Source: Saprospiraceae bacterium (GTDB lineage Bacteria > Bacteroidota > Bacteroidia > Chitinophagales > Saprospiraceae). From it: a stretch of 64,000 nucleotides of DNA. The stretch spans positions 292,739 to 356,738 of the forward strand of contig JAHDFP010000003.1 of the NCBI GenBank assembly GCA_020628095.1, in the 5' to 3' direction. Under the pieces are notes generated by a model. That model did not search any database. It had not been told where the DNA came from and saw only the letters and a program-made list of their open reading frames with translations. Both the position numbers and the translations under genes were made by a program. Shown here piece after piece: positions 10,511 to 21,390 of this stretch. Numbering within the stretch: position 1 is the first letter of the stretch; every line of letters begins with the position of its first letter.

Positions 10511-10864
10511 TTAGCACTTACCAAAAGATTGGCTTATAACTGTCACACCTAATATAGTAATGGTAATGCGAACACCCGTAGGTACTCCCCAAGTAGTGCA
10601 TAGACTAATGCAAGCCTTACCAGAAGCACCATCAGCAATACTAGTGGGAATAGAAAAACAATGCTTGCCAAAACCCAAAGGCAAGTTAACACATACCTTA
10701 TGATTTTCTACAGTTACATCTATACATTCTGCACCCACCAACATACAGTTACCGTGATTAACTTGAAGGTTAGCCACAGAGTTTTCCTGACTTTCTTGAT
10801 GACTTCTTTGTGCAGCTTCTACTGCACTTGCAATTGCTTTTTCATTAAACGAATAAGTTGCCAT
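10511..10864 (-). CDS. Orphan cysteine-rich small protein
   Basis: The 117-residue product has no signal peptide. About 38 polar residues rich in Gln, Ser and Glu come first. A compact beta-type region with seven Cys follows (40, 47, 58, 68, 84, 88 and the terminal residue), containing VCVNLPLGFGKHC, CISLCTTWGVPTGVRI and the ending QSFGKC. I have a faint impression of similar unnamed proteins in flavobacteria, but cannot name a family. The leader-plus-Cys-rich-core layout could be a modified peptide precursor, yet no maturation or export gene is nearby. It stands alone, with 277 bases upstream containing nested palindromes. Confidence 0.65.
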   Translation of the reverse strand: MATYSFNEKAIASAVEAAQRSHQESQENSVANLQVNHGNCMLVGAECIDVTVENHKVCVNLPLGFGKHCFSIPTSIADGASGKACISLCTTWGVPTGVRITITILGVTVISQSFGKC

Positions 10865-10932
10865 TTCAATTAGTTTTTTAGATTATGAATTTTCCTACTC
10901 TATTAAATATGGGCTTTTCGGATTCCGCCTTT

Positions 10933-15163: not shown

Positions 15164-17311
15164 CTAGCCTAACACATCAATTTCTTTTATAAATGGTTGC
15201 TTATAAAGTCGCTTGCCCGTCGCAGAAAATAATGCGTTAGCCACTGCGCCACCCGCAGGCGGTAAGGTTGGCTCTCCTAATCCCGTCGGGTCATTATTGC
15301 TTTTGACAAAATGCACTTCTACCTCTGGTGCTGCGGCCATTTTGATAAGACGATAATGATTAAAGTTATCTATCGTCGCTCTTCCATTTTTTATTTCGAA
15401 ATCACCATACATCGCATGTCCTATACCATCAATTATTCCGCCTTCTATCTGATTAAGAGCTGCCAAAGGATTGATGACTAATCCGCAGTCTACAGCGCAG
15501 TAGACTTTATCTATCACCGTGCTATTATCCTTTTTGACGACTTCGGCCACTTCTGCCACATAGGTGTTATGAGAATAATATGCACAAAAACCCAAATTTT
15601 TATTGCCCTTATTATACCACCCTGATTTTTCCGCTGCCAACTTTATAACTCCAATAAATTTATCAGCGTCATAGTTATATTCTTCTTCTGGTGGATTAGC
15701 TTTAGCCTTTTCTAGTAATTCGATTCTATAATCTACTGCATCCTTGCCCAATATCTCCGCCAGCTCATCAAAAAATGCCTGCTCAGCAAAGGCTAAGAAA
15801 TTAGCATAAGGTGCACGCCACGCTCCTGTAGTCAAGTTACTTTCTATACTATGGCAATCTACCCTATAATTAGGGACAGCACCACAAGGGAAATTGCTTG
15901 GCATCGGATCGAACATCATTCCATTAAAAAAGGCTTCTGTCAGATGATAAGCCGTCATCTCTCCATCCTTTATTGCCACCTTGATTTTATATGCAGAAGC
16001 TGGACGATAAGTACCAGCGGTCATATCATCCTCTCTGGTAAATAGCAAGGATACCGGCCTCTTAGCAAGGCTAGATATCTCAGCCGCCTCTACCGTAAAA
16101 TCTCCATATAATCTCCTACCAAATCCTCCACCCATTCTCGTCATCTGTATGCTAATCTGCTCTTTGTCTCTTCCCAGCAAATCTGACACTCTATTCTGTT
16201 GCCATTGAGGTGTCTGTATCGGTCCGACTAATTCTACCTTGTCCTCTGTCACATCTGCGAAAAAGTTCATCGGCTCTAGACATGCGTGTGGTAAGAAGGG
16301 TGCCTCATATATTCTTTCGATAACTTGATCGGCATCTGCGAAGGCTTTGTCTACATCACCATCGACACGTCTTGGCTTTTCCGATTTTCTATCGAGGTGC
16401 TCTTTCAATATATCGGTATGATACGCACTGTCCTCTGCTTTTTCCTTTTGATTCCACTCGGCGATTAGAGCTTTTTTTCCCTTCATCGCAGACCAGTTGT
16501 CTTTAGCAAGAACAGCTATTTTATCACCAAATTTTATAACATCTATAACCCCGTTAACCTTCTTGGCGGCACTATCATCATAAGCTACTAAAGTCTGACC
16601 AAAAGAAGGCGGACGCATAACAGATGCATAGACCATCCCATCTCTTTTATAATCAATACCAAACAATGGCTTCCCTGTGAGGATGCCATCCATGTCTACA
16701 TTAGTCTGACTTTGTCCTATTATTTTAAAATCCTTAGGGTCTTTGAGAGTAACTTCTTCTGGCAGTTCTTTGCCTGCTGCCAAGGCCGCCATCTGACCAT
16801 AATCCGTTGTACGTCCATCACTATGAGAAATAACACCTTCTGAGGTTGTACAGTCCGATGCCTCCGCTTCCCACTGCTCCGCAGCTGTATTGACCAGCAA
16901 TTGTCTTACCTTGGCACCTGCATTTCTCAAGGTTTCCCATCCCTGTCTTATAGACTGACTACCCCCAGCCACCTGACGGGTATACCATTCGGTATTAAGG
17001 GGTGCTTGTTCTACAATCACATCCCGCCATGCCACATCGAGTTCCTCTGCAACGATCATCGGCATGGATGTCTTAATGTTTTGCCCGATCTCAGGATTTT
17101 GAGACATGATCGTCACTCGACCAGTATCTCCAATTTTTAAAAAAGCATCAAAGTCAAACCACTGATTGGGCATATCTTTGATAATTTCTACAGTGGCACT
17201 GTCAGTCTTACAAGACATATAATTAATTCCTATCACCAAACCCGCTCCTCCCACTATCGAATTCTTAAGGAATGATCTTCTTGAGTCAGAATATGTATTT
17301 TGATTAGTCAT
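15164..17311 (-). CDS. Molybdopterin-binding subunit of a second Tat-exported xanthine dehydrogenase-family hydroxylase
   Basis: The 715-residue IorB-type subunit has a twin-arginine leader (SRRSFLK at about 10-16 followed by a hydrophobic stretch). Molybdenum-site motifs are present: FLPHACLEPMNFFA, MGGGFGRRLYGDFT, TGAWRAPYANF and, near the end, TGLGEPTLPPAGGAVANA with the likely catalytic Glu. It is clearly paralogous to 2454-4622 but diverged enough to suggest a different substrate. Its iron-sulfur partner lies 28 bases upstream in the same operon. MocA, which would make the required cytosine dinucleotide cofactor, is divergent next to the operon. No FAD or heme subunit is encoded beside it. 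Confidence 0.9.
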   Translation of the reverse strand: MTNQNTYSDSRRSFLKNSIVGGAGLVIGINYMSCKTDSATVEIIKDMPNQWFDFDAFLKIGDTGRVTIMSQNPEIGQNIKTSMPMIVAEELDVAWRDVIVEQAPLNTEWYTRQVAGGSQSIRQGWETLRNAGAKVRQLLVNTAAEQWEAEASDCTTSEGVISHSDGRTTDYGQMAALAAGKELPEEVTLKDPKDFKIIGQSQTNVDMDGILTGKPLFGIDYKRDGMVYASVMRPPSFGQTLVAYDDSAAKKVNGVIDVIKFGDKIAVLAKDNWSAMKGKKALIAEWNQKEKAEDSAYHTDILKEHLDRKSEKPRRVDGDVDKAFADADQVIERIYEAPFLPHACLEPMNFFADVTEDKVELVGPIQTPQWQQNRVSDLLGRDKEQISIQMTRMGGGFGRRLYGDFTVEAAEISSLAKRPVSLLFTREDDMTAGTYRPASAYKIKVAIKDGEMTAYHLTEAFFNGMMFDPMPSNFPCGAVPNYRVDCHSIESNLTTGAWRAPYANFLAFAEQAFFDELAEILGKDAVDYRIELLEKAKANPPEEEYNYDADKFIGVIKLAAEKSGWYNKGNKNLGFCAYYSHNTYVAEVAEVVKKDNSTVIDKVYCAVDCGLVINPLAALNQIEGGIIDGIGHAMYGDFEIKNGRATIDNFNHYRLIKMAAAPEVEVHFVKSNNDPTGLGEPTLPPAGGAVANALFSATGKRLYKQPFIKEIDVLG

Positions 17312-17339
17312 ATAAGCTATAAGTTCTTTGCGTTTTATA

Positions 17340-17798
17340 TTATAGATTTTTAGCGGCTGTTTTTATGGCCTTTTTTATTCTCAGGTATGTTCCACAGCGA
17401 CATATATTTCCTTGCATATAATCATCTATGTCCTGATCACTTGGATTTTTATTTTCCTCGAGCAAGGCGGCGGCAGACATTATCTGACCTGCCTGACAAT
17501 ATCCACACTGCGGTACATCATGTTCTTTCCACGCTTCCTGTAAGACATGATCTGCATTATCAGATAAGCCTTCTATGGTTGTTACTTTTTTGTTGCCGAG
17601 CTGGGATATAGTCATAGCACAAGATCTCATCGCCTCTCCATCGGCATGTACTGTACAGGCACCGCATTGAGCCACGCCACAACCATATTTAGTACCTACC
17701 AGACCTAAGTGATCGCGCAGTACCCACAGCAAAGGCATGTCACCATCTACATTCACCTTATGATCCTGACCATTTACATTTATCGTATATTCTGCCAT
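17340..17798 (-). CDS. (2Fe-2S)-binding small subunit of the second molybdenum hydroxylase
   Basis: The 152-residue protein has ferredoxin-like cluster ligands in [17 protein letters not shown] with a fourth Cys in RSCAMT. The second cluster uses QCGYCQAG and [13 protein letters not shown]. It relays electrons from the downstream Mo subunit. It is first gene of a two-gene operon and closely resembles the small subunit at 4632-5105, so the two operons probably arose by duplication. Confidence 0.92.
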
Positions 17799-17945
17799 TG
17801 TAAAAACTTTGCAATTAAGATAAGAATTTAATTAGTATCCAGAATTATAATTAGACTAACTAATCTGAATAATATAGACCTTTATTACTTTACTTAGAAA
17901 ACGCCTAACTATAGTCATATCTTTTGGCCTGAAAGCGAATTTATA

Positions 17946-18530
17946 ATGAAAATAATGGCATGCATATTAGCCGCTGGATCATCGTCCAGGATGTCTCGAC
18001 CAAAACAGCTATTAGACTATAAAGGAGAGACACTTATAACGGCAACGGTCAAAAAGCTAATGAATCTCGCCATAGAAGAACTTGCATGTATAACAGGATT
18101 CCTAAAACAAGAAATCGAAGAAGAACTAAAAGAATACAATATTACTTTTTTGCATAATAACACATTTCAAGAAGGTATAGGTACGAGCCTTAGTCTGATT
18201 GCCAACTATGCGCAAAGCAAAGACTATGATGGACTTCTAATTGCCCTATCAGACCAGCCACTTATTGATGTAAAACATTATGAAAAAATTTTGAAAACTG
18301 GTATCAGCCAAAATATAAATATCGTAGCGACCGATTATGGTTCTACAATTGGCGTACCCGCTTATTTTCATAAAAATGTATTCAATCAATTATCGGAACT
18401 AAAAGCTGACAAAGGGGCCAAATCAATAATCAATAGCCATCTCAACAAGACCATACTTCTAAAATCCATCGAAGCCAACATAGATATAGATACAGATCAG
18501 GACTATCTTAGTCTACTCAACCGAGAATAA
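17946..18530 (+). CDS. mocA: MocA-like molybdenum cofactor cytidylyltransferase (NTP transferase)
   Basis: The 194-residue cytoplasmic protein has the nucleotidyltransferase signature LAAGSSSRMSRPKQLLDYKG at the N-terminus, the acidic segment IALSDQPLID near residue 100 and the DYGSTIGVPAYF motif typical of MobA/MocA-like enzymes. In this family the enzyme joins CMP (MocA) or GMP (MobA) to molybdopterin. Position beside a molybdenum hydroxylase operon, whose enzymes use the cytosine form, favours MocA. It is divergent from that operon (147-base gap) and 34 bases before a TlpA-like gene. Confidence 0.85.
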   Translation: MKIMACILAAGSSSRMSRPKQLLDYKGETLITATVKKLMNLAIEELACITGFLKQEIEEELKEYNITFLHNNTFQEGIGTSLSLIANYAQSKDYDGLLIALSDQPLIDVKHYEKILKTGISQNINIVATDYGSTIGVPAYFHKNVFNQLSELKADKGAKSIINSHLNKTILLKSIEANIDIDTDQDYLSLLNRE

Positions 18531-18564: not shown

Positions 18565-19170
18565 ATGACCAAGCAAATACTTCTACTAATTTTTATACTA
18601 CTAAGTGCTGCGTGCAAAACTTCTGTGGAAGAAACCAACCAAGAAAAAAGCAATACGACAAGCAGCAAAACTAATCATCAGACTACCGCACCAGCAACAC
18701 AACAGTTAAGCAGTAATGAATTAAATACTTCTTTTCCTTTTGATATAAAACTAAAGGACGCCGATGGAAAAATTCATAATTCCGCAGATATATTTAAGCT
18801 AAATGGAAAACCCACAGTACTCATGTTCTGGTTAACGACCTGTGGGCCATGTCATCAAAAATTAAATGCCATAACCCCACTATATACTGAGTGGGCTAAA
18901 GAAGCGGATTTTAACATCTATGCTATTTCTGGAGATTTCCCAAAGAACTATGGCAAATTCGTAGAGCATACAAAGGCAAAAAACTGGCCTTGGGAAACTT
19001 ATAATGATGTCACGAGGAGTTTCAGAGATGTACTACCTGGAAAACTCAATGGCTATCCGCAGACTTTCATTTTTGATGAGGCTGGGAAACTTGTGTATCA
19101 AGATAAAAAATATAGGCGTGGCGATGAGGTTCGCTTATTTGATACTATAAAGGAGATTTGTAATAGTTAA
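18565..19170 (+). CDS. TlpA-like thioredoxin-fold lipoprotein
   Basis: The 201-residue product has lipobox LSAAC (Cys 17) and a Ser/Thr/Gln-rich linker of about 40 residues. A thioredoxin-like/AhpC-TSA domain follows with the redox motif TTCGPCHQ (C-G-P-C) and the cis-proline segment NGYPQTFIFDEAG. It should act as a membrane-anchored disulfide reductase on the periplasmic side, perhaps for cytochrome or cofactor maturation. It follows mocA closely, so it may serve the exported Mo enzymes (inference). Confidence 0.88.
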   Translation: MTKQILLLIFILLSAACKTSVEETNQEKSNTTSSKTNHQTTAPATQQLSSNELNTSFPFDIKLKDADGKIHNSADIFKLNGKPTVLMFWLTTCGPCHQKLNAITPLYTEWAKEADFNIYAISGDFPKNYGKFVEHTKAKNWPWETYNDVTRSFRDVLPGKLNGYPQTFIFDEAGKLVYQDKKYRRGDEVRLFDTIKEICNS

Positions 19171-19203
19171 AAGACGAAGAGCTCTATCCCGCTAAGAACA
19201 TGT

Positions 19204-19225
19204 TAACTAAATGATTATTTAGTTA
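19204..19225 (+). other. AT-rich hairpin after the TlpA-like gene
   Basis: TAACTAAAT and ATTTAGTTA form a perfect 9-bp stem with a GATT loop 34 bases after the stop of the TlpA-like gene. No strong T tract follows, so terminator function is uncertain. A smaller GTGCAT/ATGCAC hairpin lies at 19260-19276. Neither resembles a CRISPR repeat. Confidence 0.3.
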
Positions 19226-19301
19226 TATTCCATCAACAACTCCAAAGTTCCACTCTTAAGTGCATCTAATATGCACGAAAACATTTATTTTTTGACAATA
19301 A

Positions 19302-20107
19302 AAAGACAATATCAAAGTCGTAGAAGAAGATAAAAGCGGGAATACATTATATAATGTCGAATTGCGTAATGATATCGTGGGAGAATATCGTACTAAGGAA
19401 AAACTAAACTGGATAGGCAAAAAATTAGATTTTATTGTTTCGGAAAAGAAATTAAAAGATGGAACTCTGAAAGTAAATCTTTCCACTCCAGATCCGACGG
19501 ATTGGACATTACGTAAAAAGAAAACCGAAAAAGACATCTCCAATATGAACCTTACTGTAGGAGAGTATGTACTACAAACTCTAATCGACAATCCATCTTC
19601 TAAGGTTAGAGGCAAAACTGTACACACTATAGATAGAAAATATTACAAAAACGAACTTAACCAAATACTCGATAGGCAATCAAAATATCATGAGGAATTA
19701 TCAGATCACAAATCACTGTGCAAAGCAGTTGCACTACTTTACAAAAACAATGTAGCGCATAGAGACACATTAGAAAGAAACACCATGCACTCGACGCACT
19801 TATAATTGCTTGTACTTCTCGCCAACATATCCAGTATATCCACTCTTATGAGAATGAAAATTTAAGATTTGATTTGCAAGCTAAGCTCTTTGAAAAGAAA
19901 GGCAATAAACACAAAAAAACCTATCTCAAACCATGGAAAACAATTACAGAAGATGCCTACAAATCAATATCCACGATCATTCCTTCTTTTAAATACACTC
20001 ATCGTATCATCAATCGTACTAACAACTATTATCAAAAGTATGTAAGTAAGGATGGTAAAATGGTCAAAAGATATATCAAGCAAAAGAAGTCATATCTAAA
20101 GGTGTAA
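19302..20107 (+). pseudogene. cas9: Decayed type II-C cas9 remnant (HNH region deleted, frame broken)
   Basis: Two fragments in different frames match parts of a Bacteroidota type II-C Cas9. The first, 19302 to about 19775, carries the segment before the RuvC-II/HNH half of the protein: WTLRKKKTEKDI, TVGEYVLQTLIDNP, GKTVHTIDRKYYKNEL, LNQILDRQSKYHEEL, then LYKNNVAHR. It then jumps out of frame to KKHHALDALIIACTSRQH (about 19775-19825), the RuvC-III motif. A stretch follows resembling the post-RuvC domain (LKPWKTITEDAYKSI, IPSFKYTHRIINRTNNYYQKY), to a TAA at 20107. The first RuvC motif, arginine-rich bridge, most of the recognition lobe, HNH and PAM-interacting part are absent. Stops at 19293-19295 and 19299-19301 cut the upstream frame. 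No cas1, cas2, repeat array or tracrRNA is seen. Confidence 0.85.
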
Positions 20108-20147
20108 GCAAGAGGAGAATGTATGCTATTCCCAATAGTGTATTGAG

Positions 20148-20771
20148 TCAGTTTTTGATTAGTCCTTTGAGAAGTATTTTCTTTAATTGATGTTCCATTT
20201 CTATTGGACTAATTTTTTTGTTTTTGTTATGCCAATTATAAAGCCAATGTAGACTTGACAAAATGGAGTAGAGGGCAAGGTCAATGTTAATTGTGTCTTC
20301 GATATAGCCCTCTTTTTTGCACAGGGAGAGTATCAATAAGAACTTTTCTTCGTAAGCGTTTCTTTGGGATTTATAATATGAAAGTTTGGGTTCTTCTAAG
20401 TGTACCCATTCTCCAGTAATAAGCGCTATGGCATCTGGATTTTCGAGAGTAATTTTTACATGTAGACTTACTAGGCTTTCCAGTTTCTGTATTGTTGATA
20501 GAGAGGATTCTTCTATGTCCATCATGCCTTGTGTAAATTTTTTGGCAATGGAAATAAGGAGCTCTTCTAGCATTTCTTGTTTTGAAGAAATGTGGTTATA
20601 CAAGCTTGCGGCTTTCATGTCCATAGCCGTAGCGATATCTTGCATACTCGTAGCAACATATCCTCTTTTTCTAAAAAGATACGCCGCTCTATTATGGATG
20701 ATTTCTTTTTTTGTTTTGATGGATTGATTTTTTTTAAGGAGCCAGTCTGACGATGTGCCATTTTTCATCAT
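20148..20771 (-). CDS. TetR/AcrR family transcriptional regulator
   Basis: The 207-residue protein has the TetR DNA-binding region at about residues 22-68, with the recognition part ATSMQDIATAMDMKAASLYNHISSKQEML. A helical C-terminal ligand domain contains ENPDAIALITGEWVHLEEP, reminiscent of KstR2-type regulators. Its N-terminus overlaps the end of pdxH by 38 bases. No later ATG exists before the HTH, so the overlap appears real. The adjacent ATG at 20768 is an equal alternative start. It is the last gene of the minus-strand run from the efflux operon. Confidence 0.88.
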   Translation of the reverse strand: MMKNGTSSDWLLKKNQSIKTKKEIIHNRAAYLFRKRGYVATSMQDIATAMDMKAASLYNHISSKQEMLEELLISIAKKFTQGMMDIEESSLSTIQKLESLVSLHVKITLENPDAIALITGEWVHLEEPKLSYYKSQRNAYEEKFLLILSLCKKEGYIEDTINIDLALYSILSSLHWLYNWHNKNKKISPIEMEHQLKKILLKGLIKN

Positions 20772-21375
20772 CTGATAAGGTGTATCTATATCTATCGTGG
20801 TATCTGCTTTCGCGACCTTGCCAGAATTCTATCATGGAGGGTTTGACAATGAAACCGCCCCAGAAATGAGGGAGCGGAATCTTGTCTATATCCTTGAACT
20901 GGTCTTCAATTTGTTTTCTTTTTTCATCAAGATAATTCTCTTTGATTTCCTGACTCTGCGGCGATGACCATGCACTGATCTGACTACCTCGTGGTCGAGA
21001 CTGAAAATAACTTTTCGATGTATCCTCGTCCACTTTGTCGGCTATACCATCAATGCGTACTTGTCGTTCTAGTTCTTTCCACCATAACACAAGTGATACC
21101 TGAGGGTGCGCCAAAATTTCTTGTGCTTTGCGACTGGTATAATTGGTGTAAAAGGTAAACCCTTTCCTACTAAATCCTTTTAGCAGAACGATACGTGCAG
21201 ACGGTTGACCCGACTTACTTACTGTAGCCAGTGTCATGGCGTTTGGTTCTTTGATCCCCTCTTTTTCGGCATCCTGATACCATCTTTCAAATTGGATCAA
21301 AGGGTCTTCTGAAAGATCAGTTAATTCTAGTTTGTTCTTTGTATAATTTTCTCTCTGATCTGCTAGATTGTTCAT
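20734..21375 (-). CDS. pdxH: Pyridoxamine 5'-phosphate oxidase
   Basis: The 213-residue FMN enzyme oxidises pyridoxine/pyridoxamine 5'-phosphate to pyridoxal phosphate, the last step of vitamin B6 synthesis or salvage. Family landmarks are present: NAMTLATVSKSGQPSARIVLLKG at the N-terminal barrel, TFYTNYTSRKAQE (FMN phosphate region), SYFQSRPRGSQISAW and the C-terminal WQGRESRYHDRYRYT. The ATG at 21375 gives the usual MNNLADQREN start; an ATG two codons earlier is possible. The gene begins 15 bases after the RND transporter stop, so it is probably read from the efflux operon. Confidence 0.95.
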   Translation of the reverse strand: MNNLADQRENYTKNKLELTDLSEDPLIQFERWYQDAEKEGIKEPNAMTLATVSKSGQPSARIVLLKGFSRKGFTFYTNYTSRKAQEILAHPQVSLVLWWKELERQVRIDGIADKVDEDTSKSYFQSRPRGSQISAWSSPQSQEIKENYLDEKRKQIEDQFKDIDKIPLPHFWGGFIVKPSMIEFWQGRESRYHDRYRYTLSDDEKWHIVRLAP

Positions 21376-21390
21376 AACCAAATATTCTAA

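Follow-up and report, generated by a model that had tools for sequence, protein, structure and literature searches.

Two cas9-like coding fragments, read in different frames, lie side by side between a TlpA-like thioredoxin gene and a TetR-family gene in the 64,000-nucleotide stretch of DNA analysed here (the window; G000:C11:292739-356738 of the source genome, G000). This genome comprises 4.2 Mb in 33 contigs and is 98.7% complete. Together with remnants found elsewhere on contig C11, in the stretch designated L015, these fragments apparently are what remains of a type II-C-like CRISPR-Cas locus, now dead, which was broken within cas9 and whose halves lie about 40 kb apart. The features at the break are collected in Table 1.

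Table 1. Features at the window half of the locus and at its distal counterpart (window positions except in the last row).
Feature	Position	Strand	Remark
xdhB (block C)	15164-17311	-	at the inside edge of the putatively inverted segment; name read from sequence
xdhA (block C)	17340-17798	-	name read from sequence
MobA-like nucleotidyltransferase (block C)	17946-18530	+	name read from sequence
Block C, whole	15164..18530		
TlpA-like thioredoxin gene	18565..19170	+	beside the cas9 half
Expected site of cas9 start and tracrRNA region	19171..19304	+	no match to G015, G004 or G054 Cas9; no anti-repeat above shuffles
cas9 piece 1, recognition-lobe segment	19305..19766	+	blastx; no internal stop; about G015 Cas9 193-349
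Internal deletion junction	~19767..19780	+	about 660 codons missing, frame shifted
cas9 piece 2, RuvC-III	19778..20086	+	other frame than piece 1; about G015 Cas9 1007-1109
9-mer TATATCAAG at putative inversion breakpoint	20072..20080	+	window copy
Sequence past putative breakpoint	20081..20147		probably outside the inversion
TetR-family gene (block D)	20148..20771	-	probably first outside the inversion; name read from sequence
PdxH-like oxidase (block D)	20734..21381	-	name read from sequence
9-mer TATATCAAG at distal breakpoint	L015 10696-10688 = G000:C11:272,695-272,687	-	cas9 sense

Cas9 fragments in the window

Homology searches confirm that both fragments, which the sequence-only reading had taken for pieces of cas9, are real Cas9 homologues. 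Piece 1 matches the Cas9 of relative G015 by blastx (E 3e-36) and, among solved structures, residues 214-365 of CbCas9 (E 1.7e-26), which we take to be a II-C enzyme; it has no Pfam match below E 0.04. Piece 2 scores 59.5 bits against the Pfam RuvC_III profile, well over its cut-off of 26.2, and matches CbCas9 residues 1033-1148 (E 1.9e-16). Against the NCBIfam Cas9 model the two pieces score 25.0 and 28.8 bits, under the cut-off of 100, as expected because they are fragments. CbCas9 (PDB 8iyq and others) is the sole solved structure strongly matched by both window pieces. Its entry counts 1442 residues; of the relic about 260 remain in the window, and the distal half adds about 325.

Residues 350-1006 of the G015 protein and 366-1032 of CbCas9, roughly 660, are absent between the two pieces, and this gap presumably holds RuvC-II and HNH. 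The description of this cas9 as II-C-like and decayed, its HNH region hit by an internal deletion that also broke the frame, is borne out, although it missed a separate loss: the 5' ~192 codons (G015 numbering) are also gone from this half. No match to the Cas9 of G015, G004 or G054 was found before about 19305, and a gappy alignment with G059 Cas9 starts at 19227. Elsewhere in the window, a DUF805b RNA (RF02914) at 10892-10931 on the minus strand reaches 43.1 bits against a gathering score of 35.6 and is the window's only Rfam match at gathering scores.

The distal half and its state of decay

The sequence-only reading treated the fragments as the last trace of a lost locus. That reading was dropped when a whole-genome search for Cas1, which matched two pieces at C11:270.9-271.7 kb on the minus strand, led to the C-terminal part of Cas9, cas1 and cas2 on the same contig. 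This rest of the locus lies 40 kb upstream of the window half, on the opposite strand. It comprises about 325 codons for the Cas9 C-terminus, a type II cas1 with two frameshifts, a cas2 whose frame is open and a single incomplete CRISPR repeat. The reported absence of cas1, cas2 and an array nearby therefore stands for the window as inspected and fails for the contig. Searching the whole G000 assembly with G015 Cas9 at E <= 1 returned three matching places: residues 192-351 and 1002-1110 on the plus strand at C11:312.0-312.8 kb, and residues 1110-1417 on the minus strand at C11:271.7-272.7 kb. The same search gave no further pieces moved elsewhere, and residues before about 192 and from 352 to 1001 had no match in the assembly; at this threshold a complete Cas9 with RuvC-I, RuvC-II and HNH is lacking.

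By blastx, the distal frame matches G054 Cas9 residues 1171-1508 (E 4e-65) and G015 Cas9 residues 1110-1418 (E 1e-54), with no NCBIfam match. Adjacent type II cas1 and cas2 follow directly downstream. The cas1 gene runs through three frames and is therefore not intact; TIGR03639 matches it in three parts (best part E 1.4e-32), each scoring under the whole-protein cut-off of 120, and its frameshifts could in principle be sequencing errors. The cas2 frame matches TIGR01573 over the cut-off (E 3.3e-17). The order cas9-cas1-cas2 is that of G004 and, by ORF sizes and matches, also that of G015, G054 and G059.

A single repeat-like stretch begins 60 bases past cas2, and in G015, G054 and G059 the distance from cas2 to the first repeat detected is about 50-110 bases. 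Type II-C loci are expected to carry neither csn2 nor cas4 as a fourth gene ahead of the array; only those 60 bases separate cas2 from the relic repeat, and the G004 ORF list shows neither csn2 nor cas4 there. Alignment of the relic repeat with that of G004 spans 35 positions (score 25), the last 18 of them identical, and 0 of 500 shuffles reach this score. The same holds for the repeats of G054 and G059 (0 of 500 each), while the G015 comparison is not significant (9 of 500). A genome-wide search allowing up to three mismatches found a 34-base pattern of the relic repeat only once, at the relic itself, and one at the same tolerance with a pattern from the end of the relatives' repeats gave no match; what is left is one incomplete repeat and no array of this repeat. 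An anti-repeat upstream of cas9 is clear in G004 and G054 (0 of 300 shuffles reach the score) and weak in G015 (14 of 300), and none stood above shuffles in three G000 stretches at the breaks. Based on gene content, kinship with CbCas9 and general knowledge of these systems, the locus is assigned to a type II-C-like descent, and it is judged to be without function now.

The damage amounts to two large losses in cas9, two frame breaks in cas1 and the disappearance of the array except for one repeat-like stretch. Within the open stretches of cas9, cas1 and cas2, which total 982 codons, there are no premature stops, the lone stop counted in the last cas1 piece being its natural end, and for this reason the decay looks young. 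Assuming neutral drift and joint loss of constraint, the lack of nonsense changes in these codons caps the divergence near 0.023 substitutions per site (95%), a rough bound because the stretches were picked as open segments between frame breaks; bounds of the same kind are 0.070 for the C-terminal piece alone and 0.084 for the window half alone. The suggestion that the deletion junction could be dated against relatives is answered only by this rough bound, since the junction turned up in no close relative.

CRISPR-Cas systems and gene order in relatives

RuvC_III of Cas9 was detected in 12 of the 60 genomes searched, G000 included, and in 2 of 14 within the genus (G000 and G004), and Cas1 in 3 of 15 (G000, G004 and G015); several of these genomes are incomplete, which makes the absences weak. 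The window pieces match CbCas9, and all three pieces match the Cas9 of relatives. G004 (L019/L020), a member of the same genus, resembles the relic in carrying homologues of cas9, cas1 and cas2 arranged alike, along with a 47-nt repeat to which the relic repeat can be aligned. Unlike the relic, it has full frames (1443, 297 and 113 aa, respectively), an array of ~77-nt units whose end lies about 1 kb short of the contig end, an anti-repeat on the upstream side of cas9 and another chromosomal context. A telomere-like low-complexity TTGGG/TTTTGG run lies just past the end of this array (L020 309-492, G004:C61). G015, G054 and G059 have ORFs of fitting size and place as well as arrays; the G054 cas9 is an open frame without a usual start, and the G015 cas2 was recognised by eye.

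Gene order was compared with that of seven genomes from the same genus (G001, G002, G004, G005, G006, G011 and G012), in 14 stretches altogether. In G000, a block of LytTR, histidine-kinase and TonB genes (block A) lies beyond the distal cas genes. In G012, xdhB(-) and xdhA(-), three other ORFs and MobA(+) are followed directly by LytTR(-), histidine kinase(-) and TonB(-). This junction has the order and orientation expected on undoing an inversion between the two breaks, in one relative only. Between MobA and LytTR, G012 has no Cas9, Cas1 or Cas2 match and no tlpA, and its MobA match reaches only 34% identity. G012, which is 53% complete, provides the best PdxH match (75% identity) among 35 other genomes searched, and the second predicted junction, of block B with block D, was not seen in it.

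Comparison of the syntenic interval thus gave the predicted C-A junction in G012 and in none of the other relatives. G004 and G006 have block A with other genes past LytTR, the G002 contig stops inside LytTR, and the neighbours of tetR in G005 are genes from the 262-kb side. The TlpA-like orthologues of G004, G011 and G001 sit in other surroundings. Contigs of named relatives were also searched. With xdhB as the query, no C-A junction appeared among the best 80 of 414 loci, many of them short and the nearest labelled Saprospiraceae, Bacteroidetes or Chitinophagales; three of these 80 carry a 26-30% match to a block A gene. The Cas9 C-terminal piece as the query found no relative there. Gene order in this region is evidently fluid among relatives.

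Some further features of these blocks were observed. A Uma2-like gene (name from sequence; no NCBIfam match) lies between the relic repeat and LytTR (L015 7731-8327, plus strand), and its place is empty in G012. The G002 orthologue of the histidine kinase is broken into two overlapping frames (L030 9965-10985). Directly inside the left breakpoint are three consecutive lipoprotein-like genes with SdrD-like domains, named from sequence (L015 11084-14358, G000:C11 ~273.1-276.4 kb), one of which has a long Asp/Met-rich tract. An open-frame scrap on the B side (L015 ~10704-10880, plus strand) was weighed as a possible remnant of a gene disrupted at the other breakpoint.

An inversion through cas9 as the likely cause

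The two halves of cas9 are reciprocal. In blastx alignments, the window half ends at residue 1109 of G015 Cas9 and the distal half starts at 1110, and with G054 the corresponding residues are 1170 and 1171; with the G004 and G059 proteins the halves do not abut, and 42 and 38 residues remain unaligned between them. Near 20086 the window half stops at a rearrangement breakpoint, not at an eroded gene end. A 9-mer, TATATCAAG, occurs at both breakpoints, the copies being about 40.1 kb apart. Its support is only modest because the 45-nt windows compared were set after the match had been seen: 37 of 4000 random pairs of 45-nt windows from the region share a match of at least 9 nt. Long inverted repeats that might have driven an inversion were sought between the 6-kb breakpoint regions, and no inverted match there exceeds 17 bases; the best inverted match has E 1.3, and the best direct match covers 29 bases at 86% identity (E 0.11). 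No mobile-element genes were seen by eye among the breakpoint ORFs. Reversing a 40.1-kb inversion rebuilds a single cas9-cas1-cas2 operon.

It is very probable that an inversion of about 40.1 kb split a type II-C-like cas locus, of which the window holds the 5'-side half. Under this model, the ancestral order would have been xdh-mobA-tlpA-cas9-cas1-cas2-array, followed by the LytTR/histidine-kinase/TonB block in reversed orientation. One breakpoint would have fallen inside cas9, just past RuvC-III, and the other beside tetR, and two inversely oriented copies of TATATCAAG may have recombined. Such an event would have left cas9 as far as residue ~1109 at C11:312.8 kb and cas9 from ~1110, together with cas1-cas2, at C11:272.7 kb (residues numbered as in G015). 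Before or after it, the window half would have lost its 5' ~192 and ~660 internal codons, cas1 would have taken two frameshifts, and the array would have been reduced to one incomplete repeat. More tentatively, the inversion itself may have switched off CRISPR immunity, and recently, by cutting an intact cas9 through short homology, with all other damage later; this sequence of events is conceivable and falls somewhat short of being probable.

Other explanations account for parts of this picture. Simple erosion by deletions at one site, leaving an isolated last trace, would agree with the internal deletion and the 5' loss, which are both real, with the absence of cas genes from the ORFs inspected in the window up to 24 kb and with the lack of any Rfam match near the cas9 pieces. 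Yet the C-terminus, cas1, cas2 and the repeat survive 40 kb away, and the halves abut at the same residue in two homologues. This contradicts erosion as a full account, so that it holds only for the two losses inside the window half and is very improbable as the history of the locus. An assembly artefact, with a segment inverted or misjoined through a contiguous cas9 and frameshifts that are base-calling errors, is conceivable in a genome of 33 contigs. Against this, the breakpoint regions share no inverted match longer than 17 bases, the two large cas9 losses and the collapsed array are independent signs of decay, and several flanking genes match their orthologues at near full length, making such an error quite unlikely.

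More than one event, such as transposition of cas9C-cas1-cas2 or nested inversions, could also have separated the halves, as the fluid gene order among relatives and the unseen B-D junction predicted by a single inversion might suggest. However, the halves lie on one contig in opposite orientation with reciprocal ends, G012 has one of the predicted ancestral junctions, and the breakpoints show no mobile-element gene by eye; a multi-step history is accordingly rated unlikely. Selection might instead have kept the halves as working parts, for example as a stand-alone Cas9 C-terminal domain or as cas2, given that the ~325-codon C-terminal frame and cas2 are open and that no open piece has a premature stop. 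But the missing Cas9 parts are unmatched, cas1 is broken, and neither an array of the relic repeat nor, in the stretches tested, an anti-repeat is present. Young decay accounts for the open frames equally well, and retained function is highly improbable. The best-supported account remains that short inverted homology led to a 40-kb inversion through cas9; it draws on the reciprocal halves and one relative, and confidence in it is slightly reduced because the ends fail to abut in two of four homologues.

A decayed cas9 has been described before. In Campylobacter jejuni NCTC 12664, as in the relic, a type II-C cas9 has turned into a pseudogene, although the passages of that report dealing with the gene describe no split of the locus into two places (PMC6003733). 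Inversions and CRISPR elements in S. suis are treated in another study, whose passages on them describe no inversion through cas genes (PMC5398294). No paper listed by the literature search appeared to describe a cas9 gene or cas locus split by inversion. A dead II-C-like locus belongs to a known kind, and the rearrangement through cas9 is the notable part of this one.

What appeared to be the last CRISPR trace proved to be half of a split locus, and tallies of cas genes as lost or orphaned may therefore mislead when they are based on short windows or contigs. The locus also illustrates one concrete way in which CRISPR can be lost, by a rearrangement through cas9; both junctions are readable and later point mutations are few, so that strains of the same species could reveal the order of events. 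If the inversion did come first, and recently, the locus would be an early-stage fossil of CRISPR loss through chromosome rearrangement.
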